Shown: positions 76-59,111 of the stretch, piece by piece
Numbering within the stretch: position 1 is the stretch's first letter
Layout: every line of letters starts with the position of its first letter
From: an uncultured Desulfomonile sp.
Lineage (GTDB): Bacteria > Desulfobacterota > Desulfomonilia > Desulfomonilales > Desulfomonilaceae
Assembly: GCA_903952205.1 (NCBI GenBank)
Contig: CAJBEZ010000071.1
Span: 62,001 to 126,000 of the forward strand
DNA length: 64,000 nucleotides
Direction of reading: 5' to 3'
Translations under genes and position numbers: made by a program
Notes under the pieces: generated by a model
Databases searched by the model: none
Told to the model about the DNA's origin: nothing
Seen by the model: only the letters and a program-made list of their open reading frames with translations

Positions 76-1125
76 TTGCGGATTCGTGTGGTCGAAGTGC
101 CAGAACCTTTCTTAAACATAGCGATAAGTCTTACCCTTTGTTTTGCTTTCGTCAACGGGTTCCACGACGGAGGGAACGTTGTCGCAGCAACAATATGTTC
201 GCGCTCCATGAACCCGTGGAGGGCGCTATTCTATGCGGCGGCGGCTGAATTTATCGGCCCGCTTCTACTTGGAACCGCTGTGGCCCGGACAATGTCCTCA
301 TGTGTGCTGAAACCCGACATGGTTGAAGCGATAGACCCGCATCTTCTCAACATCATTGTCTCCAGCGCCATGGTCGGGGCTATGACATGGAAGCTTCCTA
401 CATGGTATTTCGGTCTCCCCTCAAGTGGCTCACATGCGCTCATAGGTGGTCTCGTAGGCTCTGGGATAGTGGGCATGGGTGTTCAGTCCATAGTAATCGA
501 CAAGGTTGTTTCGAGCGTTCTGCTGCCGCTCCTCATATCGCCCATCCTCGGAATCTTCCTTGGATACTTTATTTTTTCTGTAATAAGAACGATCTTCAGG
601 GCCGCTCACCGGAGATCCGGCTTTTTTTTCGCCATTCTTCAGAGACCTGTAATGGTAACGCTGGCCGCCGCCCATGGATCCAACGACGCCCAGAAATCCA
701 TGGGAGTGATCGCAATCCTGCTGTCAGCCAGGATCCACGAGGTTGAAAATGGACTGATACTGCCGCAATGGGTCGTCTACAGTTGCGCTGCGGCTATTGC
801 GCTAGGGTTGCTCGCTGGTGGATGGCGCATTGTCAAGACGGTTGGTTTCGGGATATCCAAGATGGAACCGGTCCACTCTTTTGCGGCTCAGTTATCGTCT
901 GGTATTATAATCCTGGGAGCTTCCGTGTTCGGTGGGCCTGTAAGCACAACCCAGGTAGTAGGTTCATCAGTGCTGGGAGTCGGCGCTTCCCGAAGGGCCA
1001 GTGGTGTCCGCTGGTCTTCCGCCGCGAACATTGCGTACGCGTGGGTCTTCACCTTCCCTGCTTCCATGCTGGTCGGAGCTTTTTTCTGCCGTCTCCTGAC
1101 CTGGCTGTTTTATCCTATAGGCTGA
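76..1125 (+). CDS. pit: PiT-family inorganic phosphate permease (copy 1)
   Basis: Integral membrane phosphate:cation symporter of the PiT family. The two inverted family signatures are visible: NGFHDGGN near residue 22 and HGSNDAQKS near residue 198, each followed by hydrophobic segments; about ten membrane spans can be drawn. At 349 residues it is a compact member and lacks the long central cytoplasmic loop of E. coli PitA. The start is uncertain: TTG at 76 follows an in-frame stop at 73, and GTG codons at 88 and 97 are alternatives; none has a good Shine-Dalgarno sequence. The DUF47 gene follows after 10 nt, the usual Pit accessory arrangement. A second, divergent PiT-DUF47 pair lies at 45724-47634. 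Function is from family knowledge; the ion specificity is inferred. Confidence 0.9.
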   Translation: MRIRVVEVPEPFLNIAISLTLCFAFVNGFHDGGNVVAATICSRSMNPWRALFYAAAAEFIGPLLLGTAVARTMSSCVLKPDMVEAIDPHLLNIIVSSAMVGAMTWKLPTWYFGLPSSGSHALIGGLVGSGIVGMGVQSIVIDKVVSSVLLPLLISPILGIFLGYFIFSVIRTIFRAAHRRSGFFFAILQRPVMVTLAAAHGSNDAQKSMGVIAILLSARIHEVENGLILPQWVVYSCAAAIALGLLAGGWRIVKTVGFGISKMEPVHSFAAQLSSGIIILGASVFGGPVSTTQVVGSSVLGVGASRRASGVRWSSAANIAYAWVFTFPASMLVGAFFCRLLTWLFYPIG

Positions 1126-1135
1126 GGTTTCAATC

Positions 1136-1747
1136 ATGGCCCTCTGGAAGATATTCGGCAATAAGCGTGAGGTCGATTTTTATGAACTCCTGGTGGAGCA
1201 ATCCGAGAAGACGCTGCTTGGTTGTAAAGCGCTGGTGAAGTATCTTGACAATACCGCCGACCATGACGAAATGTCGAGACTGGAGCAGGAAGCGGATGAC
1301 ATAAGACGAATACTGATCGATGAAATCAACCAGACCTTCCTGACTCCAATGGATCGTGAAGATATTTTTACGCTGTCGCGAGCCATCGACGACGTCATTG
1401 ATCACGCTTACAACACCGTCAAGGAAATGGAAGTCTTCGAGGTCAGCGCCAACGAATTCCTTATCAAGATGGCTGAACTGCTGGTTAAGGGCGCTGAAGA
1501 ACTCACCAACGCCATAAAACACCTCAAGAAAAACCCGAATGTCGCCATTGAATATGTTGTGCGGGCCAAGCGACTGGAAAATAAAATGAATGACACCTTC
1601 CTGGCTGCCCTTAACCAGCTATTCGCCGGGAATAACATAAGGCAGATGCTTATCTATCGGGAGATATATCGCCACTTTAACCGCAGCGCCGACAGGGTTG
1701 ACGAGGCGGCGAACATCATTAGCGACATAGTTGTAAAGATGGGATAG
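1136..1747 (+). CDS. DUF47 / PhoU-like Pit accessory protein (copy 1)
   Basis: A 203-residue, almost entirely helical protein of the DUF47 (TIGR00153, PhoU-like) family. The family hallmark of acidic helix repeats is visible: LEQEADDIRR near residue 51 and the MDREDIF/AIDDVIDHAYN stretch near residues 73-95. Members are cytoplasmic partners that modulate PiT permeases encoded next to them. It starts 10 nt after the permease stop, so the two are almost certainly cotranscribed. Some relatives are annotated as phosphate transport regulators by analogy with PhoU; a direct signalling role is not shown by the sequence. Confidence 0.88.
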   Translation: MALWKIFGNKREVDFYELLVEQSEKTLLGCKALVKYLDNTADHDEMSRLEQEADDIRRILIDEINQTFLTPMDREDIFTLSRAIDDVIDHAYNTVKEMEVFEVSANEFLIKMAELLVKGAEELTNAIKHLKKNPNVAIEYVVRAKRLENKMNDTFLAALNQLFAGNNIRQMLIYREIYRHFNRSADRVDEAANIISDIVVKMG

Positions 1748-1784
1748 TTCAGGATAGTGATGTAAGTTCCGTAGTCTTGGGCAT

Positions 1785-4700
1785 TTAATTATCCATTCCC
1801 GCCTGAATAGATATCTCGCTGTCTTCATTTCTCGTGGCGCCCAATTTATCCAGGATAGACACGGCAATTTTCTTGTCGGTCTCTTTTCCTTGAACCTTCA
1901 ACAAGGACACCTTCCTCCTTTTGGCCTCCGAGATGGTGTGGCTTGTCACGATACGCCTGTTTCCCGCAGATTCTTCGAGGCGGGTCTGTCCAAACGACAT
2001 CATAAGGCAATCATGCAGTTGGGCTTGACGAACCGGTTTTGTAAGATACCCGGCAAAACCTTTTTCCTCGAGACGACTGACGTCTCCCCTCCTGCCAAGA
2101 GATGTCATCATTACAAGCACGACATCCCGCATCATAGGGTCCGCCTTGATTATCTCTCCAAGGGTCTCACCGTCCATGTCCGGCATTTGCATGTCCAGTA
2201 TCGCTATCTCATAGGGATCTCCGGATATTACCGCTTCCTGCAGTTTAGCCAGTGCCATGGAACCACTAGGCGCAAGGTCGAACCGGCATCCCCAGGACTC
2301 AAGGTATGCTCCAAGAAGGCGACGGTTGGTGGCGTTATCATCAACCCCGAGGATGCGACGACCTGTAATTTCCTGGGTCATCGCCGTAATTGACGACCGG
2401 GCTATCCGCTGTTTTTCCAGAGCTGCGGTAAACCAGAATAACGACCCTTCACCTAGGCGGCTCTCTACTCCAATTTCCCCGCCCATCATATCCACGAGAT
2501 TCTTCGATATGGAAAGTCCCAGCCCTGTGCCCTCATAGTGTCTGGTGTCCGAAGCGTCGATCTGGGTAAAAGGAGCGAACAGTGATTCGATTTTGTTCTC
2601 CGGGACGCCTATTCCGGTGTCCATGACAGTGAACTTGATGACAGCCTTGTCGTCGAGTTCTTCCACCGCTTCCACCCTTACCGACACTTCCCCCGAGGAT
2701 GTAAATTTTACAGCGTTCCCAATAATGTTGATGAGGACTTGCCGGATTCTCCCGGGATCACCCCTGACAAACGAAGGAACATCCGGGTCGATAAGGCATA
2801 CAAGCTCCAGACCCTTTTCCTGTGCCCTTACCGCCAGCAAATCGGATACGTCTTCCAGGGCAGCCCTCAAATCAAAGTCGATTGTTTCGATAGTCAGTTT
2901 CCCCGCCTCTATCTTTGCGAAGTCCAAAATATCATTGATCAGACGAAGAAGAGCCTCCCCCCCACCTCTGACTATTTCAGCGTAATCTCGTTGCGTACCG
3001 TCAAGTTCAGTGTTCAGAAGGAGATCGGTCATTCCAATCACGCCGTTGAGGGGGGTCCTGATCTCATGACTTACGTTGGCAAGGAATTGGCCCTTTGCGA
3101 TATTCGCCGCCTGCGCTTCTACTGTAAGTCTTTCGGCTTCCAGTATCGACTCCCGCAATAACTCGTTGGTTTTATTAACCTCTTCGTTGGCCATTCGAAT
3201 GGCCTCTTCTGATCGCTTCCTTTCGGTGATGTCTCTGAGACCTGTGAGGATGAACTTTTCTCCTGCTTCCTCGAAACTTTTTAGAATGACTTCAGCGTCA
3301 AAGAGTGTTCCGTCGGATCGACTAGCCTTCCATTCAAAGATCTGGTCTTCACCCTGAAGGGCTTTACGCCAGATTTCGGGTATCGTCTCAATAGGGCTCG
3401 CCGGCCCAGGCAACTCCGTTTCGATTGTGGTGGACATTATCTGCGCCGGCGTCATTTTAAACAGGCTCAACATCATGTCATTGAAGCCGACTACTCGCCC
3501 TGTCGCGTCCTGAATGACCAGGGCGTCGTGAGCCGAGTTGAATACACGCCTCAGCCTTCTCTCGGAGGCCCTGATTACAACTTTAGACTCAGCCGACCTT
3601 ACCTGGGCGCAATGAAATCCTGTAAGAAGCATTCCTATGACCAGTGTCATGAATATAGGGAACAACCTGCCCAGGCCGACACTCTTTATCCAGGCTCCCG
3701 CCCCCAGATCCATGCCAACTATCGCCATGACCTTACCCGGAGTTTCCGGGTCCATTAACGGCGCAAATGCGCTGACCCAGGATCCCCAACGGTCGGCGTA
3801 AGGGCCTATGGTGATCTTCTTTCCATCCCGAAAAATCGCTTTTATTGATGGAGGAGCGTCCTGATAAACCCAGCCTGGAGGGGAGAAATCCTTGGAGTCC
3901 ATGGGTTCGGAATCCATAAGGAAAATTACCATTCCATTCTTGAAACCAAGCATGTAGATGAATCGGCATTCCGGAGCGCTCGCTCGTATTTTGCTGAACT
4001 GGCGATGAATATCCATGTACTGTGTCGAGTCCACATCGCCGACATCCCCGCGTAACTCGCGAAACCTTTCAATATCGACGCCACCCGCAACCATCTCAGC
4101 CTGAACGGCTAGACTATTGCGAAGGCTACTGTCGGCCCTTCGCCCGACAATTTCCGTAACTCCCCAGCCTACAATAACCGTTAAAACCAAGGCGGCCAAT
4201 AACCTTGATCCCGTAAAACCCGAGCGAATCTGTTCATTTGCGGTCACTGAACCGCCGGCCCATTCGGAAGCGACGTAACCCCAAACGCCAAAGGCCATAG
4301 TCGAGCAGGACGCCGCTCTTAACAACTGAACCGGAATATGGAAACTGGAACGGAACCATCCTTCGTTTAAGGACGAAGCCGGGAAAAAAGAAGCTTCAGC
4401 CGGAACCAGTCCTGCTGTAAGACCAAAAAAGATCGTAGCCACACTGGCCACTTTGAGATAAATGGAACCCCTCGGAATTGCGCAGGAACTTTCCCGCCAG
4501 AAGGCCAGAGCGGCAATCATGGCGCCTGAAAGCCCCAGAGAATACCTGCTCGTCGCGAAAATTCCCGTCATACCATCCAGGGCCCCTATGCACCCCAGAA
4601 ATACGAGAGGATAATATACCCAAGGTCCCGGATCATTGTCTTTCGTCTTAATCGCCGCGCTTCTCCGCCCAAATTCCAGCAGAGCGGCGAAGGAGCCCGC

Positions 4701-4919
4701 CATCAGCGTCAGCCTTACCACCTTCAGGAGAAAAGGGTCAGGTAGGCTTAACGCCATAATTTCCATTATCTGGTAAGCTCCGTGAAGCGCAGCGAAGAGA
4801 GCCATCCATGAAAACGGCAGACGGGCGGATCGGCGCTGGGCCATGATCGAGCAGATCAGCGCCAGGACTATGCAACTCAGCCCATTAACAAAAAGTGTGT
4901 AATCGAGTTGTAGGCTCAT
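1785..4919 (-). CDS. Membrane hybrid sensor histidine kinase with truncated second receiver
   Basis: A 1044-residue hybrid kinase. Order: about seven hydrophobic spans in residues 1-220, a further span near 239-258, an extracytoplasmic sensor-like region (about 265-425), a span near 430-450, a PAS domain (about 465-580) ending in an ITERKRSEE linker, HisKA with the H-box SHEIRTPLNG (His near 618), HATPase_c with N-box GNAVKF, DTGIGVP and GTGLGLS, and a receiver (about 854-975) with phosphoacceptor Asp near 909 in ILDMQMPDMDG. After the receiver a stretch resembling the start of a second receiver is present, but its acidic pocket is lost (LLKVQGKETDKK where LVAEDNxxNQK is expected) and the protein stops about 35 residues later. 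No ribosome-binding site is obvious at the start. Ligand unknown. Confidence 0.9.
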   Translation of the reverse strand: MSLQLDYTLFVNGLSCIVLALICSIMAQRRSARLPFSWMALFAALHGAYQIMEIMALSLPDPFLLKVVRLTLMAGSFAALLEFGRRSAAIKTKDNDPGPWVYYPLVFLGCIGALDGMTGIFATSRYSLGLSGAMIAALAFWRESSCAIPRGSIYLKVASVATIFFGLTAGLVPAEASFFPASSLNEGWFRSSFHIPVQLLRAASCSTMAFGVWGYVASEWAGGSVTANEQIRSGFTGSRLLAALVLTVIVGWGVTEIVGRRADSSLRNSLAVQAEMVAGGVDIERFRELRGDVGDVDSTQYMDIHRQFSKIRASAPECRFIYMLGFKNGMVIFLMDSEPMDSKDFSPPGWVYQDAPPSIKAIFRDGKKITIGPYADRWGSWVSAFAPLMDPETPGKVMAIVGMDLGAGAWIKSVGLGRLFPIFMTLVIGMLLTGFHCAQVRSAESKVVIRASERRLRRVFNSAHDALVIQDATGRVVGFNDMMLSLFKMTPAQIMSTTIETELPGPASPIETIPEIWRKALQGEDQIFEWKASRSDGTLFDAEVILKSFEEAGEKFILTGLRDITERKRSEEAIRMANEEVNKTNELLRESILEAERLTVEAQAANIAKGQFLANVSHEIRTPLNGVIGMTDLLLNTELDGTQRDYAEIVRGGGEALLRLINDILDFAKIEAGKLTIETIDFDLRAALEDVSDLLAVRAQEKGLELVCLIDPDVPSFVRGDPGRIRQVLINIIGNAVKFTSSGEVSVRVEAVEELDDKAVIKFTVMDTGIGVPENKIESLFAPFTQIDASDTRHYEGTGLGLSISKNLVDMMGGEIGVESRLGEGSLFWFTAALEKQRIARSSITAMTQEITGRRILGVDDNATNRRLLGAYLESWGCRFDLAPSGSMALAKLQEAVISGDPYEIAILDMQMPDMDGETLGEIIKADPMMRDVVLVMMTSLGRRGDVSRLEEKGFAGYLTKPVRQAQLHDCLMMSFGQTRLEESAGNRRIVTSHTISEAKRRKVSLLKVQGKETDKKIAVSILDKLGATRNEDSEISIQAGMDN

Positions 4920-5203
4920 AATTCAGACAACGAGCTTTAATTAATAAATTATTTTACGGTCGTAATTCCAGAGATATGCCCTCATAACGTAATTGAATAT
5001 ATTAAATAGACCTTAGGCTGTCTAGAAACTTTAACATGAATATAATATTATTATTGATTTTATAGCTGTAATTGAATCTAACAAACGCGGTATATTCAAG
5101 TTTTATGGCGCAATGAGAGCTAATCATGTAATAATTCATGTACGCGCCAATAAAGATACCATAGTGTCTGTTTTGGAACTTACACCAACAAGGAATCTTC
5201 GCA

Positions 5204-51827: not shown

Positions 51828-52181
51828 ATGAACGTGATTAAGGCATTTGAATTCAACAACGCCTGTTTCACTTTGCCCGCCTATGATGGGAGTCACAAGG
51901 GCAACGTGGACGCATGGATGAAAGTGGTGGATCACATAAGGTGGCGATCGCCTTCAATCTACAAGCCGCTTCTACGGAGAGTTCAGCGTTTCAATGAAGG
52001 TAAGACGGATGAAATGGACGTTGTGTCTACACTGCTGCAGGGGAATTTTCAATTCGACGTTCATGTAATCTGGCGCCATGCGGCGGCTACGCTTCACATG
52101 TTTTGCATGGTTTCAGCAGACCGGAGTTGTTCAGGGATTCCGGCTCAACCTGCCCAGGTTAAGGAGCGACTATGCAATTAG
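51828..52181 (+). CDS. Small hypothetical protein upstream of the Sel1-AAA gene
   Basis: A 117-codon frame with an AGGGA sequence 7 nt before the ATG. The product (MNVIKAFEFNNACFTLPAYD at the start; VWRH-like segment HVIWRHAAATLHMFCMVS later) has no signal peptide or motif that I recognise. It may be a real small protein; codon use looks ordinary but not decisive. It ends 131 nt before the large Sel1-AAA gene on the same strand and could share its transcript. Confidence 0.4.
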   Translation: MNVIKAFEFNNACFTLPAYDGSHKGNVDAWMKVVDHIRWRSPSIYKPLLRRVQRFNEGKTDEMDVVSTLLQGNFQFDVHVIWRHAAATLHMFCMVSADRSCSGIPAQPAQVKERLCN

Positions 52182-52312: not shown

Positions 52313-55300
52313 ATGGTAAAATCTGAATTAGAGCGAATCACACGGATGGCTGTTGCTCAAAACGACCCAATGGCTCAGTTCAATCTTGGCTTCATGTACA
52401 ATAACGGGTTTGGGGTAAAAAAAGACTTTAATGTAGCCATTAAGTGGTATCAACTGGCGGCTGAACAAGGATATTCGGTCGCTCAATTCAACTTGGGAGG
52501 AATGTACGAAAACGGTCTAGGGGTCCGACAGGATCCCCTGGAGGCTCTCAAATGGTATAGAAAAGCAGCTGACTTAGGTTTGCCGGATGCGCAAAACAGT
52601 TTGGGATCGATGTATAAGACAGGCCATGGGGTTCAGCAGGATTACAGGGAGGCGGTCAAGTGGTACCGATTCGCCGCTGACCAGGGATATTCTGTAGCCC
52701 AGAGTAATCTCGGCTTTATGTACGACAATGGTTTTGGCGTGCCGCAAGACCACAAGGAAGCTGTTAAGTGGTACAGCCTTGCAGCCGAACAAGGATATTC
52801 AGTTGCCCGATTCAATCTAGGTGTCATGTACGAAAATGGACAAGGGGTCCAGCGGGATTTTAAGGAAGCCATCAAGTGGTACAGCCTTGCAGCCGAACAG
52901 GGATTGCCGGATGCGCAAAATAATCTGGGGTTGATTTACAAGAATGGCCTTGGAGTCCAACAAGACCCTATGGAGGCATTGAAATGGTATAGAAAAGCAG
53001 CGGAACAAGGGTATTCATTCGCACAAAGTAATTTGGGAGTGATGTACGAAAATGGCACAGGAGTCCCTCAAGATTACAAAAAGGCGATTAGTTGGTATCA
53101 ACTGGCCGCCGATCAAGGTTACTGTGTTGCTCAATTCAATCTCGGAGTGATGTATGAAAATGGGTTAGGCACAGAACAGGACTACGAAGAAGCTGTCAAA
53201 TACTACCAACTCGCCGGTGACCAAGGTTTGCCTGATGCTTTAAATAATCTCGGACTATTGTACAAAAACGGTTTCGGTATTCCTCAGGATTTTATAAAGG
53301 CCTTCAAGTGCTTTAATAAAGGAGCCGAACAGTCGTTACCCGATGCCCTTAACAATTTAGGTTCCATGTACATGAATGGCCTTGGCATACCGCAAGATTT
53401 TGTGAGGGCGCTCAAGTGTTTCACAAAAGCAGCGGAACAAGGGTTGCCGGAAGGCCTTAACAATCTTGGTTCCATGTACAAGAACGGCTTAGGCACGTCG
53501 CAAGATTTTGTAAGGGCGCTCAAGTGTTTCACAAAAGCAGCGGAACAAGGGTTGCCGGACGCTCAAAATAATCTCGGACTATTGTATAAGAATGGCCTAG
53601 GAACGCCCCAAGACTATAATACTTCTATCAAATGGTTTCGACTAGGGGCAGAGCAGGGATTACCGGACGCTCAAAACAATCTTGGATTAATGTACAAGAA
53701 TGGCCTAGGGGTAACTCAGGACTTTATTGAGGCGGTAAAATGGTATCGATTAGCCGCCAAGCAGAAATACTCCATAGCGCAGAGTAACCTGGGGTTCATG
53801 TACGACAATGGTTTGGGTGTCGCTCAGAACTATGAAGAAGCTGTAAGATGGTATCGATTAGCCGCTGAACAAGGATATTCAATAGCTCAATTCAACCTCG
53901 GAGGGATGTACGATACTGGGATCGGTGTCCCTCAAGACTTTGCTGAAGCCCTCACATGGTATCGGCTAGCCGCAGAGCAAGGGTTACCGGACGCTCAAAA
54001 CAATCTCGGACTCATTTACAAGAATGGCCTAGGGGTAACTCAGGACTTTGTTGAGGCGGTAAAATGGTATCGATTAGCCGCTGAACAGGGGTTGCCTGAT
54101 GCTCAGAATAATTTGGGGATTATGTTCGAAAACGGCTTTGGGGTAACCCAGGATCTTGGCGAGTCTGTCAGATGGTATGGGTTGGCGGCTGAGCTGGGAT
54201 ATCCGGCGGCACAGTTCAATTTGGCGGTCATGTACGAAAATGGCCTAGGGGTGTCACAGGATCTCGGTGAAACTGTAAAATGGCTCCAAATGGCGGCCGA
54301 ACAAGGACTAGCGGAAGCTCAAAGCAACCTTGGAATGTTGTACAAAGCCGGTATAGAAATGCCCCAAGATCTTAATGAAGCGGCGAAATGGTATAGGCTT
54401 GCGGCTGAGCAAAGATATGCGGTGGCGCAGTTCAACCTAGGGGTTATGTACGAAAACGGTCAAGGATTGACTCAAGACCCTGCTGAAGCTCTAAAATGGT
54501 ACCGGTTAGCCGCTGAGCAGGATTTAGCAGACGCCCAAAACAACTTGGGCGCATTGTATAAGAGCGGCTCCGGAGCGCCTCAAGATTTTGTTGAAGCGGT
54601 TAAATGGTACAAGCTGGCCGCCGATCAGGGACACTCCATGGCCCAATGTAACCTCGCATTTATGTATGAAAACGGTTTAGGCACACCCCAGGATTTAAGG
54701 GAGGCGGGCAAATGGTACCGACTTGCAGCGGATCAAGGACATTCTACGGCTCAGTTCAACCTGGCCTACATGTATGATAACGGTTTGGGCGTGAGCCAAG
54801 ACCATAGCGAGGCGGTAAAGTGGTGCCGATTGGCCGCTGAACAAGGACATTCCCAGGCTCAATTCAATCTGGGGGTTATGTACGAAAACGGTCAGGGGGT
54901 TCAACACAATCCCAAGAAAGCCGTCAAGTGGTATCGTTTGGCCGCTGAGCAGGGTTTGCCGGATGCTCAGAATAGCCTGGGGCTAATGTATAAAAGAGGC
55001 TTAGGGGTCCTTCAAGACCACGAGGAAGCCGTGAAGTGGTATCAATTGGCCGCTGAACAAGGATATTCTGTTGCTCAAAGTAACCTGGGGTTCATGTACG
55101 ATAACGGTCTAGGTGTCACAAAAGACCTCAAGAAAGCCGTCAAGTGGTATCGACTGGCCGCTGATCAGGGATACTCCGTTGCTCAATTCAATCTGGGGGG
55201 AATGTACGAAAACGGATTTGGTGTTCCCAAAGACTTCAGAAAGGCCATGAGATGGTATCGTCGGGCGGCAGACCAAGGACTCTCAGACGCTCAAAATAAT

Positions 55301-57331
55301 CTGGGGCTTATGTTCAGGAACGGTTTTGGAACTCCCCAGGATTACAACGAAGCTATCAAGTGGTACCGAAAGGCGGCTGATCAGGGACACTCAGGAGCTC
55401 AAAGTAATCTTGGTTTTATGTTTGATAACGGTATAGGAGTTCGTCAGGATCATGAAGAGGCTATGAGATGGTATGGTTTGGCTGCTGAACAGGGATGTAC
55501 AGTCGCCCAATTCAATCTCGGTGTAATGTATGAAAATGGCCAAGGAGCGCCTCAAGATTACGTAGAGGCTCTCAAATGGTATAATAAGGCTGCCGGCGAA
55601 GGACTTCCCGATGCTCAGAATAATTTGGGACTTATGTTTAAAAATGGTTTTGGCGTGTCACAAGATTACGACGAAGCTATTAAGTGGTACCGGAAGGCGG
55701 CTGATCAGGGACACGCCGTTGCTCAAAATAGCATTGGCCTAATGTACGAAAACGGCCAGGGGGTAACTCAGGATCACAGAGAGGCTTTCAAATGGTATCG
55801 CCTCGCCGCAGACCAAGGACTCCCCGATGCTCAGAATAATCTCGGTCTTATGTACAAGAACGGTCTTGGTGTTCTAAGAGACCATATTGAGGCGGTCAGG
55901 TGGTTTCGCATCTCTGCAGAAGAGGGCCTTCCCGATGCTCAGAATAATCTCGGTCTCATGTACAAGACCGGTTTTGGTGTTGAGCAAGACCACAATGAGG
56001 CTGTAAAGTGCTTCAGACGCGCTTCAGATCAGGGTTATCCAGCCGCTCAATTCAACCTCGGAGTCATGTGTGAAAATGGTCAGGGAGTGCCCCAAGACTA
56101 CGTAGAGGCTCTCAAATGGTATCGTAAAGCTGCAGATCATGGACTGGCAGACGCTCAATCAAGGCTGGGATCTATGTACGCTCACGGTCAGGGAGTCAGC
56201 CAGGATTATGGCGAAGCGAAAAGATGGTTTGATAAGGCTGCGGAACAAGGACTGCCTGAAGGCCAACGCAATCTTGGTGTGGTCTTTTTTTATGGCTGGG
56301 GTGTTCGACAGGACGTCAAGGAGGCGAGCAAATGGTTCAAGCTGGCTGCGCAACAAGGAGATTCCAGATCTGAGGCTTATCTGAGGGAGGTCGATGGCCA
56401 ACTGAAAATCAAAAGACGGCGACCCTCATCTGAGAAAGGCAGAAAAAAAGGTGGAAAGTTCCCTAAAGACTCAAATGAGTCATTGGAACTGTTATTTGCG
56501 GAACTCAACAAAATGGTGGGTCTGCAGAGAGTCAAGGATGAGATTGATCAACTGATAAAATTTGTGCGTGTACAAAAGATGAGGCACTCGCAGGGGCTCA
56601 AAGCGGACTCACTGTCTTTGCACTGTGTTTTCTTTGGAAACCCCGGCACAGGAAAAACCATGGTGGCAAGAATTTATGGCAAGATGCTCAAAGCCCTGGG
56701 ATTGTTGAGTCGAGGTCACCTTGTCGAAACCGATAGATCTGGGCTTGTAGCAGGCTATGTGGGACAAACCGAGTTAAAAACTGATGAGAAAATCTCCGAA
56801 GCTCTAGGCGGAATACTTTTCATCGATGAAGCTTACTCTCTTTACAAGGGGAAAGATACTCAACTGGATTACGGCAGTGAGGCAATCAGCATTCTGCTGA
56901 AACGCATGGAAGACCACAGAGACGACTTCGTCGTGGTCGTTGCCGGGTATGAAAAACCCATGGCCGAATTTCTTCAGTCAAATGAAGGCTTGAAAAGCCG
57001 TTTTTCAACTACTATTCGCTTTCCTGACTATTCTCCTAAGGAACTTCTCGATATATTTGAATTGTTCTGCAAAGAAGGGAATTACGAAGTCCAATCGGCC
57101 GCTCTTGAGTTGGTTTCTTATATACTGAATAATGAATACCGTGACCGTGATGAAACATTTGGAAACGGGCGTTTGGTACGAAATCTTTTTCAGAGCATAG
57201 TGAGAAATCAATCAGTCCGCATAGCTGAAACGATATCCGACTCTACCCACTCTGATCTGGTCACCATACTGCCTGATGATGTTCGTCCACTACTGGAAAA
57301 GAAACAGGAACCAGAGGTGGCCAATTATTGA
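52313..57331 (+). CDS. Giant Sel1-repeat protein fused to a CbxX/SpoVK-type AAA+ ATPase
   Basis: A 1672-residue protein without signal peptide or membrane span, so probably cytoplasmic. After 20 residues, 37 consecutive 36-residue Sel1-like repeats (about 21-1352) of the form AQxNLGxMYxNGxGVxQDxxEAxKWYRLAAEQG build one continuous solenoid. A basic linker (KIKRRRPSSEKGRKKGGK) leads to a C-terminal AAA+ domain (about 1395-1655) of the CbxX/CfqX-SpoVK group: Walker A GNPGTGKT (1442-1449), Walker B ILFIDEAY with Asp1505-Glu1506, sensor 1 VVVVAGYE, arginine finger SRF and sensor 2 GNGRLVRNLF. Relatives include Rubisco activase CbbX and EccA of type VII secretion, which also joins a helical-repeat part to such an ATPase. 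Here no RubisCO or Esx gene is near. Role: remodelling or disassembly of a target selected by the solenoid (inference). Confidence 0.9.
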   Translation: MVKSELERITRMAVAQNDPMAQFNLGFMYNNGFGVKKDFNVAIKWYQLAAEQGYSVAQFNLGGMYENGLGVRQDPLEALKWYRKAADLGLPDAQNSLGSMYKTGHGVQQDYREAVKWYRFAADQGYSVAQSNLGFMYDNGFGVPQDHKEAVKWYSLAAEQGYSVARFNLGVMYENGQGVQRDFKEAIKWYSLAAEQGLPDAQNNLGLIYKNGLGVQQDPMEALKWYRKAAEQGYSFAQSNLGVMYENGTGVPQDYKKAISWYQLAADQGYCVAQFNLGVMYENGLGTEQDYEEAVKYYQLAGDQGLPDALNNLGLLYKNGFGIPQDFIKAFKCFNKGAEQSLPDALNNLGSMYMNGLGIPQDFVRALKCFTKAAEQGLPEGLNNLGSMYKNGLGTSQDFVRALKCFTKAAEQGLPDAQNNLGLLYKNGLGTPQDYNTSIKWFRLGAEQGLPDAQNNLGLMYKNGLGVTQDFIEAVKWYRLAAKQKYSIAQSNLGFMYDNGLGVAQNYEEAVRWYRLAAEQGYSIAQFNLGGMYDTGIGVPQDFAEALTWYRLAAEQGLPDAQNNLGLIYKNGLGVTQDFVEAVKWYRLAAEQGLPDAQNNLGIMFENGFGVTQDLGESVRWYGLAAELGYPAAQFNLAVMYENGLGVSQDLGETVKWLQMAAEQGLAEAQSNLGMLYKAGIEMPQDLNEAAKWYRLAAEQRYAVAQFNLGVMYENGQGLTQDPAEALKWYRLAAEQDLADAQNNLGALYKSGSGAPQDFVEAVKWYKLAADQGHSMAQCNLAFMYENGLGTPQDLREAGKWYRLAADQGHSTAQFNLAYMYDNGLGVSQDHSEAVKWCRLAAEQGHSQAQFNLGVMYENGQGVQHNPKKAVKWYRLAAEQGLPDAQNSLGLMYKRGLGVLQDHEEAVKWYQLAAEQGYSVAQSNLGFMYDNGLGVTKDLKKAVKWYRLAADQGYSVAQFNLGGMYENGFGVPKDFRKAMRWYRRAADQGLSDAQNNLGLMFRNGFGTPQDYNEAIKWYRKAADQGHSGAQSNLGFMFDNGIGVRQDHEEAMRWYGLAAEQGCTVAQFNLGVMYENGQGAPQDYVEALKWYNKAAGEGLPDAQNNLGLMFKNGFGVSQDYDEAIKWYRKAADQGHAVAQNSIGLMYENGQGVTQDHREAFKWYRLAADQGLPDAQNNLGLMYKNGLGVLRDHIEAVRWFRISAEEGLPDAQNNLGLMYKTGFGVEQDHNEAVKCFRRASDQGYPAAQFNLGVMCENGQGVPQDYVEALKWYRKAADHGLADAQSRLGSMYAHGQGVSQDYGEAKRWFDKAAEQGLPEGQRNLGVVFFYGWGVRQDVKEASKWFKLAAQQGDSRSEAYLREVDGQLKIKRRRPSSEKGRKKGGKFPKDSNESLELLFAELNKMVGLQRVKDEIDQLIKFVRVQKMRHSQGLKADSLSLHCVFFGNPGTGKTMVARIYGKMLKALGLLSRGHLVETDRSGLVAGYVGQTELKTDEKISEALGGILFIDEAYSLYKGKDTQLDYGSEAISILLKRMEDHRDDFVVVVAGYEKPMAEFLQSNEGLKSRFSTTIRFPDYSPKELLDIFELFCKEGNYEVQSAALELVSYILNNEYRDRDETFGNGRLVRNLFQSIVRNQSVRIAETISDSTHSDLVTILPDDVRPLLEKKQEPEVANY
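52373..56368 (+). repeat. 37 tandem 108-bp coding repeats (Sel1 units)
   Basis: The units are in frame and 108 bp each with no indels across about 4 kb. Most are diverged, but neighbours can be nearly identical: 53391-53451 and 53499-53559 match at 60 of 61 bases (one-unit distance), and 53701-53757 and 54025-54081 at 56 of 57 (324 bp, three units). This points to recent unit-level duplication or gene conversion on top of an older array. Confidence 0.85.
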
Positions 57332-57455: not shown

Positions 57456-57893
57456 GTGGTCAATTATGGTGATTGCATCGTGTTTTTGCTGGCAAAGGCC
57501 TACCAGCATGCACATTTTCAATTGAAGAAGCATCTCTTGCCTTACGGACTGACCCCAGTCCAATATCTTGTCCTAGAAGCCATTAGCCGGGAGGAAGGTC
57601 TTTCAGCTACGGAAATTGGCCGCAAGGTTTCTTTGGACAGCGCTACGCTCTCGGGAATACTCGACAGGCTTACTGAGAGGCACTGGATAATCAAGGAACT
57701 GGACCCCCTGGACAGAAGATCTTTGAGGCTCTATCCGGGAGAACAAGCTAAAGCCTCACAAGAGGAGATGGTGGGCGTAAGAGAGCGTTCCAACGATGAA
57801 ATCCTCGAAGACTTTTCCATTGAAGAGAGGGTTCTTCTGAAAAGATTGCTCAAGGATTTGTCCCGTCCAGTTTTAGCGGATAGATCAATTTAG
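57456..57893 (+). CDS. MarR-family transcriptional regulator
   Basis: A 145-residue winged-helix regulator. The DNA-binding part reads YLVLEAISREEGLSATEIGRK, VSLDSATLSGILDRLTERHWI and the wing KELDPLDRRSLRLYP (D-x-R-D/R motif), flanked by N- and C-terminal dimerisation helices. GTG start; a palindrome overlaps its promoter. The next gene, an iron-sulfur protein, starts 123 nt downstream on the same strand and may be a target. The effector is unknown. Confidence 0.92.
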   Translation: MVNYGDCIVFLLAKAYQHAHFQLKKHLLPYGLTPVQYLVLEAISREEGLSATEIGRKVSLDSATLSGILDRLTERHWIIKELDPLDRRSLRLYPGEQAKASQEEMVGVRERSNDEILEDFSIEERVLLKRLLKDLSRPVLADRSI

Positions 57894-58016: not shown

Positions 58017-59111
58017 ATGACCGCAAAGGTTTACTTTGATTTGCGTGAGCAGATGGATCAATATTCAGTGGGTTTTCCAACAACCGAGTCCGGGGTTGAA
58101 ATGGAGATATTGAAAAAGCTTTTCACCGAAGAAGAAGCGGAGATGTATCTCAATCTCAGTATGATGCTGGAAACGCCTCAAGACGTGGCAAAAAGATTGG
58201 GAAGGGATACAACACAAATTAGTGAAATTCTCGAAAAGATGTTCGAAAAGGGCCTTATTTTCCGTGTGAGAAAAGGAGACATTCGCAAATACGCCGCTGA
58301 ACCGTTTGTAATTGGGTCTTTCGAGCACCAGGTAAAAAACATGGACAGGGAATTTGCCGAGCTTTTCGAACGTTACTTTTCAGAAGCCTTCGGTAAACAG
58401 GGGTTGGCGATTTCCTCTCCACTTCGAACTGTGCCTGTGAACAAATCTATCAGCCATAAGTGGCCTGTAGCCCCATACGAAGATTTGAAAGAAATCGTCA
58501 AGAAAAAGGACCAGATCTCCGTAGCCAACTGCGTGTGTAGAACTCAACAAAGGCTATTAGACAAAGGCTGCGATAAGCCTCTGGAAGTTTGTCTTTCGTT
58601 TGGAAGCCATGCGCAATACTACGTCGACAAGGGTATGGGCCGTTACATATCACAGGATGAGGCCCTGGAAATACTGGATAAATGCGAAGAAGAAGGCCTT
58701 GTGCCCCAGCCGTTCATATCACAGGAAGCGGGTGGAATCTGCAATTGCTGTGGCGATTGCTGCGGCATACTGCGATCCATCAAGCTACACCCAAAACCTG
58801 CTGAAAAGGTGCTTTCCAGTTATTACGCCGAAGTTGACCCGGACTCGTGTTCAGCATGCGAAACCTGCATGGACAGGTGTCAGATGGAGGCCATCAAGAT
58901 TGACGAAGTGGCTCAGATAGATAGAGACCGGTGCATTGGTTGCGGCTTGTGCGTCACAACCTGTCCGACCGACGCCATATCTTTGAAGGTCAAACCGGAA
59001 TCGGAGCGAAAGCTCCCTCCCGTCACCGGCAGGGAATTTGTGATGAATTTGGCCACTGGTCGAGGCAAAACGCTTATTCCCCTTTCCGTAATAAAGAGAT
59101 CACAGGCGTAA
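58017..59111 (+). CDS. Winged-helix 4Fe-4S ferredoxin-domain protein
   Basis: A 364-residue cytoplasmic protein. Residues about 30-90 look like a winged helix (TPQDVAKRLGRDTTQISEILEKM). The middle has a Cys-rich module (NCVCRTQQRLLDKGCDKPLEVC near 172-194 and GICNCCGDCCGIL near 243-255) that resembles the extra cluster region of related oxidoreductase subunits. Residues about 275-335 form a two-[4Fe-4S] ferredoxin: CSACETCMDRC and CIGCGLCVTTCP. CAGGAG precedes the ATG. Similar proteins in sulfate reducers and methanogens are annotated only as 4Fe-4S binding; electron transfer or redox sensing is likely. Confidence 0.85.
   Translation: MTAKVYFDLREQMDQYSVGFPTTESGVEMEILKKLFTEEEAEMYLNLSMMLETPQDVAKRLGRDTTQISEILEKMFEKGLIFRVRKGDIRKYAAEPFVIGSFEHQVKNMDREFAELFERYFSEAFGKQGLAISSPLRTVPVNKSISHKWPVAPYEDLKEIVKKKDQISVANCVCRTQQRLLDKGCDKPLEVCLSFGSHAQYYVDKGMGRYISQDEALEILDKCEEEGLVPQPFISQEAGGICNCCGDCCGILRSIKLHPKPAEKVLSSYYAEVDPDSCSACETCMDRCQMEAIKIDEVAQIDRDRCIGCGLCVTTCPTDAISLKVKPESERKLPPVTGREFVMNLATGRGKTLIPLSVIKRSQA

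Follow-up and report, generated by a model that had tools for sequence, protein, structure and literature searches.

AAA+ ATPases of the SpoVK-EccA-like clade, among them SpoVK, CbbX and EccA, combine an AAA+ module and its lid with a GY signature at sensor 1, a sensor-2 arginine and a pore-loop tyrosine. The N-terminal recruiting domains of these dedicated chaperones vary and include TPR, β-helix and β-prism folds (PMC10659427). CbbX with a Y114A substitution still hydrolyses ATP but no longer remodels (PMC5437159). The clients known for the clade are few, namely Rubisco, type VII substrates and MurG. Repeat domains are found on this motor in EccA and other TPR–CbxX fusions, in which an N-terminal α-solenoid is joined to a C-terminal CbxX-type AAA+ domain, and in the β-helix–CbxX proteins of Streptomyces and Embleya, which carry a long repeat domain on the same AAA+ type. 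Sel1-like repeats are described in free-standing proteins such as c5321, LceB, HcpC and the Oxalobacter Sel1 proteins. Sel1 does not occur among the N-terminal domains in PMC10659427, and our literature search found no paper uniting Sel1 with CbbX or SpoVK.

The protein described here, encoded in a window of 64,000 nucleotides from an uncultured Desulfomonile sp., shares the AAA+ features listed above with the SpoVK-EccA-like clade, which also holds its nearest families by score, and follows its plan of a variable N-terminal recruiting domain. It differs in that this domain is a 37-unit Sel1 arm instead of a TPR, β-helix, β-prism or short SpoVK N-terminal domain (Table 1). The TPR–CbxX fusions (e.g., L026 and L027, same phylum) contain ordinary TPRs in whole proteins of ~450–600 aa, with ~50% AAA+ identity and no triplet-typed array seen, and the β-helix proteins have a β-solenoid where an α-solenoid is found here. 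The free-standing Sel1 proteins share the repeat fold and differ in having far fewer repeats (11 in c5321) and no motor domain.

A sequence-only reading of the window had described 37 uninterrupted 36-residue Sel1-like units followed by an AAA+ domain, and this was borne out in one 1,672-residue frame, an observation far beyond chance. The ATG start is supported by an N-terminus common to three species of the genus, this one and those we term G005 and G007 (M-x-K-S-E-[LI]-[ED]-R-I-x-R-M), and by a GGAG ~12 nt upstream. No signal peptide was recognized by eye in the N-terminus (MVKSELERITRMAVAQNDPMAQ), so the protein is presumably cytosolic. Misassembly of the repeats is unlikely, because DNA identity between units averages 62% and reaches at least 87% in only 2 of 666 pairs, the gene sits inside a 236-kb contig, and units 13–37 align one-to-one with those of another species (see below). 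No RNA families were found close to the gene, and a promoter and terminator scan around it gave scores no better than shuffled sequence.

Table 1 Features of the Sel1–AAA+ gene, in window coordinates
Feature	Residues	Position	Strand	Remarks
Whole gene	1,672 aa	52313..57331	+	Start ATG; frame open end to end
37 Sel1-like repeats	18–1349	52364..56359	+	Script and Pfam Sel1
Last unit (37)		56252..56359	+	With unit 36, a distinctive C-terminal pair
Predicted capping helix after last repeat	1350–1367	56360..56413	+	AF2 helix 362–379 in a 683-residue model
Lysine/arginine-rich flexible linker	1365–1393	56405..56491	+	pLDDT below 50 at 1368–1388
AAA+ domain with AAA_lid_6 and C-terminal tail	1394–1672	56492..57328	+	SpoVK/CbbX/EccA type
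Walker A, GNPGTGKT		56636..56659	+	
Pore-loop 1, GYVGQ		56753..56767	+	Tyr1482 aligns with the Tyr of CbbX GQYIGH
Walker B, LFIDEA		56816..56833	+	
Sensor-1 region, VVAGYE		56936..56953	+	Contains the clade's GY signature
Arginine-finger motif, GLKSRF		56987..57004	+	
Sensor-2 motif, FGNGRLVRN		57158..57184	+	

In the motor part, Pfam AAA and AAA_lid_6 both scored above their cut-offs; the closest fold by Foldseek was CbbX, and the closest sequences were CbbX and EccA1. Walker A, Walker B, the arginine finger and sensor 2, which the earlier reading had called intact, are all present, and across 20 aligned sequences (this protein and 19 relatives) most of the catalytic and pore-loop motifs show no or almost no variation. 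The same alignment displayed two hallmarks of the SpoVK-EccA-like clade: the GY signature, in which A, G and Y of VVAGYE (residues 1542–1547) are invariant, and the sensor-2 arginine, with both Arg residues of FGNGRLVRN invariant. Within SNEGLKSRF, the Asn is invariant and is followed four residues later by Lys (Arg in CbbX) and six residues later by an invariant Arg. The earlier identification of the protein as a giant Sel1 solenoid attached to a CbxX-group AAA+ remodeller is supported, and the AAA+ domain folds like CbbX.

None of the named families accommodates the protein. The CbbX model (red-type Rubisco activase, TIGR02880) scored about 219.5–225 bits against a cut-off of 459, and there is no RuBisCO in the genome; the EccA model (type VII secretion, TIGR03922) scored about 235.8–241 bits against 466.65, and the genome has no WXG100 protein; the SpoVK model (MurG spore chaperone of sporulating Firmicutes, TIGR02881) scored about 269.1–274 bits against 422.95, and the N-terminus here is a Sel1 array. 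The remark that no RubisCO or Esx gene lies nearby extends to the whole genome (99.99% complete), in which neither a RuBisCO large subunit nor a WXG100/Esx protein was found; judged by gene content, the client appears to be neither. Two NCBIfam equivalog models, MerG (NF033786; 826 bits, cut-off 350) and MotX (NF047621; 426 bits, cut-off 330), passed their cut-offs only because many brief Sel1 matches were added up, 20 stretches for MerG and 15 for MotX. Both were rejected; the gene product differs from MerG and MotX in length and architecture, and automatic annotation could misname it as either.

Mapping the fusion across genomes disclosed a narrow distribution. Among the 18 genomes of the order, all from one family, four of the seven in the genus (one per species) have the AAA+ part, whereas the 11 others lack it; the three genus species without a match are 82–83% complete, so that a missing copy there does not amount to absence. 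The copies in the three other species are 83–92% identical over the AAA+ part. All four species carry the Sel1–AAA+ fusion, which removes the concern, raised with the sequence-only reading, that it might occur in one genome alone. The sole other uninterrupted copy is that of G007, with 47 Sel1 units. The G005 copy is divided between two contigs, with its 5′ end on C88 and its AAA+ domain, preceded by at least 25 units, on C3, and in the third species, G006, a 6-kb contig bears a frame break inside the Sel1 array (L024:1272–1338) that reflects either an assembly error or a real lesion.

Beyond the genus, related AAA+ domains at E ≤ 1e-20 were detected in four of 395 genomes sampled across the phylum (two TPR–AAA+ fusions, one CbbX-like protein and one multi-AAA+ protein), with no Sel1–CbxX fusion outside the genus among these matches and none in the rest of the class (42 genomes searched in all). 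None of the best 80 AAA+ matches from 84,980 species genomes (46–55% identical) had Sel1 in its frame, and the viral contigs scanned with the AAA+ alignment gave no match. The plasmid matches listed were mostly annotated as β-helix proteins, the one inspected being a β-helix-like fusion, and some Actinomycetota bear a β-helix in place of the Sel1 arm. One Streptomyces frame (L098:6943–9804) joins a right-handed β-helix to the same AAA+ type, and an Embleya frame (L141, about 1117–5064) resembles the Streptomyces one by eye. Within the genomes sampled, the fusion thus seems restricted to the genus; Sel1–CbxX proteins may also occur elsewhere. Sel1 joins TPR and β-helix on the same motor, and the combination of a repeat receptor with a CbxX motor looks modular and not like a special case of EccA. 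The suggestion of an undescribed remodeller holds only in part: variable N-terminal recruiting domains on this clade were already published, albeit without Sel1 (PMC10659427), and the novelty of the motor was overstated.

In the repeat arm, the spacing of the units, determined by script, is always exactly 36 residues, and Pfam Sel1 (PF08238) scored 1,396 bits over 37 stretches; Foldseek returned SLR structures as top matches for the Sel1 part, so that both the Pfam cut-off and the fold place the arm among Sel1-like repeat proteins. AF2 models showed a mean pLDDT of 93.6 for residues 1–773 (units 1–21), with helix A at unit positions 2–14 and helix B at 22–34, and of 88.6 for units 28–37 plus the AAA+ domain, where the Sel1 part lay mostly at 93–98. 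The pair formed by units 36 and 37 is kept as the array end in G005, G006 and G007. In the crystal structure of c5321, 7–8 units make one turn with a pitch of 60–65 Å, the concave surface consists of the first helices of the repeats, and packing residues occupy other positions (PMC3851747). If this geometry holds, an arm of 37 units would make about five turns and extend over roughly 30 nm (300 Å).

The most informative feature of the arm, overlooked in the sequence-only reading, is a three-type pattern in its groove. Units sort into types A (LPDAQNNLGLMYKNG), B (YSVAQSNLGFMYDNG) and C (YSVAQFNLGVMYENG), which carry D-N-L-K, V-S-F-D and V-F-V/G-E, respectively, at positions 3, 6, 10 and 13. 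Here the types run CCABCABCAAAAABCAACACABCCABCABCAAAACAA, with 22 of 36 steps following the order A>B>C>A (shuffle mean 11.2; 1 of 5,000 shuffles). The order is more regular in the relatives: 41 of 46 steps in G007 (shuffle mean 15.6; 0 of 5,000), 17 of 24 in G005 (0 of 5,000) and 9 of 10 in the G006 fragment (8 of 5,000). A lag test that needs no classification of the units gave the same picture for G007 (0 of 1,000 shuffles) and G005 (3 of 1,000); for this protein alone it did not, with 162 of 1,000 shuffles when all positions were used and 55 of 1,000 when only five signature positions were. Across the family the triplet pattern is strong, and in G007 it spans most of the array; this protein shows it in eroded form. 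Among the remaining Sel1 proteins of the genome, those of sufficient length for the test showed no three-unit period.

Phase information in an uninterrupted block of G007 resides only at unit positions 1, 2, 3, 6, 10 and 13, and weakly at 34, so the types differ almost exclusively on helix A. The classical ligand-facing positions of TPRs are 2, 5, 9 and 12, and we take Sel1 positions 3, 6, 10 and 13 to be these same positions shifted by one. Within helix A, which AF2 places at positions 2–14, positions 3, 6, 10 and 13 form one stripe; as the first helix lines the concave face in c5321 (PMC3851747), this stripe should face the groove.

We consider it probable that the gene encodes a dedicated hexameric chaperone of the SpoVK-EccA-like clade with solenoid client receptors. 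By analogy with the family, the AAA+ domains would assemble into a hexameric ring that is driven by ATP and pulls the client by means of the pore-loop tyrosine, and the whole would act in the cytosol as a client-dedicated remodelling chaperone. At its N-terminus each subunit would bear a Sel1 superhelix (37 units here, 47 in a sister species), connected to the motor by a predicted flexible basic linker. Because the A-B-C order in the groove is selected, the groove probably serves as a periodic receptor. Its ligand would be a single client that is long, repetitive or multimeric, to be remodelled, assembled or activated by the ring. The precedent of the family favors a dedicated over a general client (PMC10659427). 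From the anatomy of the arm, we infer that it is the client receptor and that the three-unit period reflects the long, repetitive or multimeric nature of the client; the earlier expectation of a large or repetitive client is somewhat strengthened by the groove pattern, and the sequence of the receptor should in itself limit the kinds of client that would fit. In a more specific form of this proposal, which we hold to be unlikely, a client that is polymeric or repeated would bind in register to the three-unit code while the ring ratchets or assembles it, making the protein a motor with a periodic ruler whose length differs between species.

The same pattern might instead pack arm against arm, with solenoids within or between hexamers interlocking through complementary stripes into a cage or fibre regulated by the AAA+ ring. 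Position 13 alternates between K in type A, D in type B and E in type C, which offers complementary charges, and long Sel1 arrays are usually interaction scaffolds. The signature positions, however, fall on the stripe of helix A that is concave and classically faces the ligand, not on the outer helix B; we regard self-assembly as distinctly unlikely and favor a pattern that binds the client.

Between species, dN is 0.03–0.075 for the AAA+ part and 0.17 for units 1–8, with synonymous sites saturated in both, which indicates purifying selection on arm and motor alike. Units 13–37 pair one-to-one with units 1–25 of G005 C3 at an offset of 12, with a mean DNA identity of 0.724 (0.61–0.66 at other offsets), which means that individual units have stayed in place since the species split. 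At fourfold-degenerate sites, identity in this protein (G000) is 0.328 for same-type and 0.317 for different-type units (0.272 for random draws); same-type units are no closer at synonymous sites, so the types are old and held by amino-acid selection, not by recent copying. The corresponding values of 0.435 versus 0.388 in G007 and 0.395 versus 0.365 in G005 are slightly higher for same-type units, pointing to some recent copying there too.

An arm that is under purifying selection and colinear unit by unit is unlike fast-evolving recognition arrays, which argues against a sensor or defence protein whose solenoid recognizes a foreign or stress ligand and whose AAA+ part switches state. The repeat-plus-ATPase architecture is common in sensors, and the AAA+ part has weak PADLOC matches to IetA, but these reach 30 bits, far below SpoVK, EccA and CbbX (274, 241 and 225 bits), and the neighbouring genes tested had no strong defence match; a role of this kind is very unlikely. 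That the arm arose by neutral expansion of repeats attached to an otherwise ordinary AAA+ chaperone, with length and type order devoid of function, is already disfavoured and highly improbable, for although unit number varies between species (37 versus 47) and runs of A occur, the one-to-one pairing with the 25 G005 units, the low dN alongside saturated synonymous sites and the retention of the types though synonymous sites are near-random all stand against it.

The surroundings of the gene were compared across the copies checked. A conserved partner gene had been sought as support for a system, and none emerged: no neighbour keeps its position, and by this comparison the gene appears to behave as an orphan. 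The 117-aa ORF at 51828, put forward earlier as a possible partner, has no family match and no tblastn match beside the copies of other species, a comparison that covers the upstream side of the gene only for G007 and G005. A MarR regulator at 57456 adjoins the gene in this genome only. The iron-sulfur gene at 58017 was also rejected as a conserved partner; it lies downstream here, whereas in G007 it precedes the fusion gene by ~400 bp and in G005 the two are on different contigs. Its product (58017–59111) is a winged-helix and 4Fe-4S ferredoxin-type protein with 75–78% identity to its counterparts in four further species of the genus.

Further repeat and AAA+ sequences were also noted. On the same contig, ~108 kb upstream of the gene, a short frame (L017:6570–6830) contains a second AAA+ lid fragment, 56% identical to residues 245–294 of the AAA+ query; a transposase and a Sel1 gene lie close by, and the fragment is what is left of a related AAA+ gene. 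Two proteins of ~1,130–1,170 aa in the same genome (L012:5252–8650 and L013:2322–5828) combine Sel1 repeats with long ankyrin arrays, and a 785-aa protein (L014:4287–6641, minus strand) carries a caspase-like N-terminal domain of the EACC1-associated type followed by about ten Sel1 repeats.
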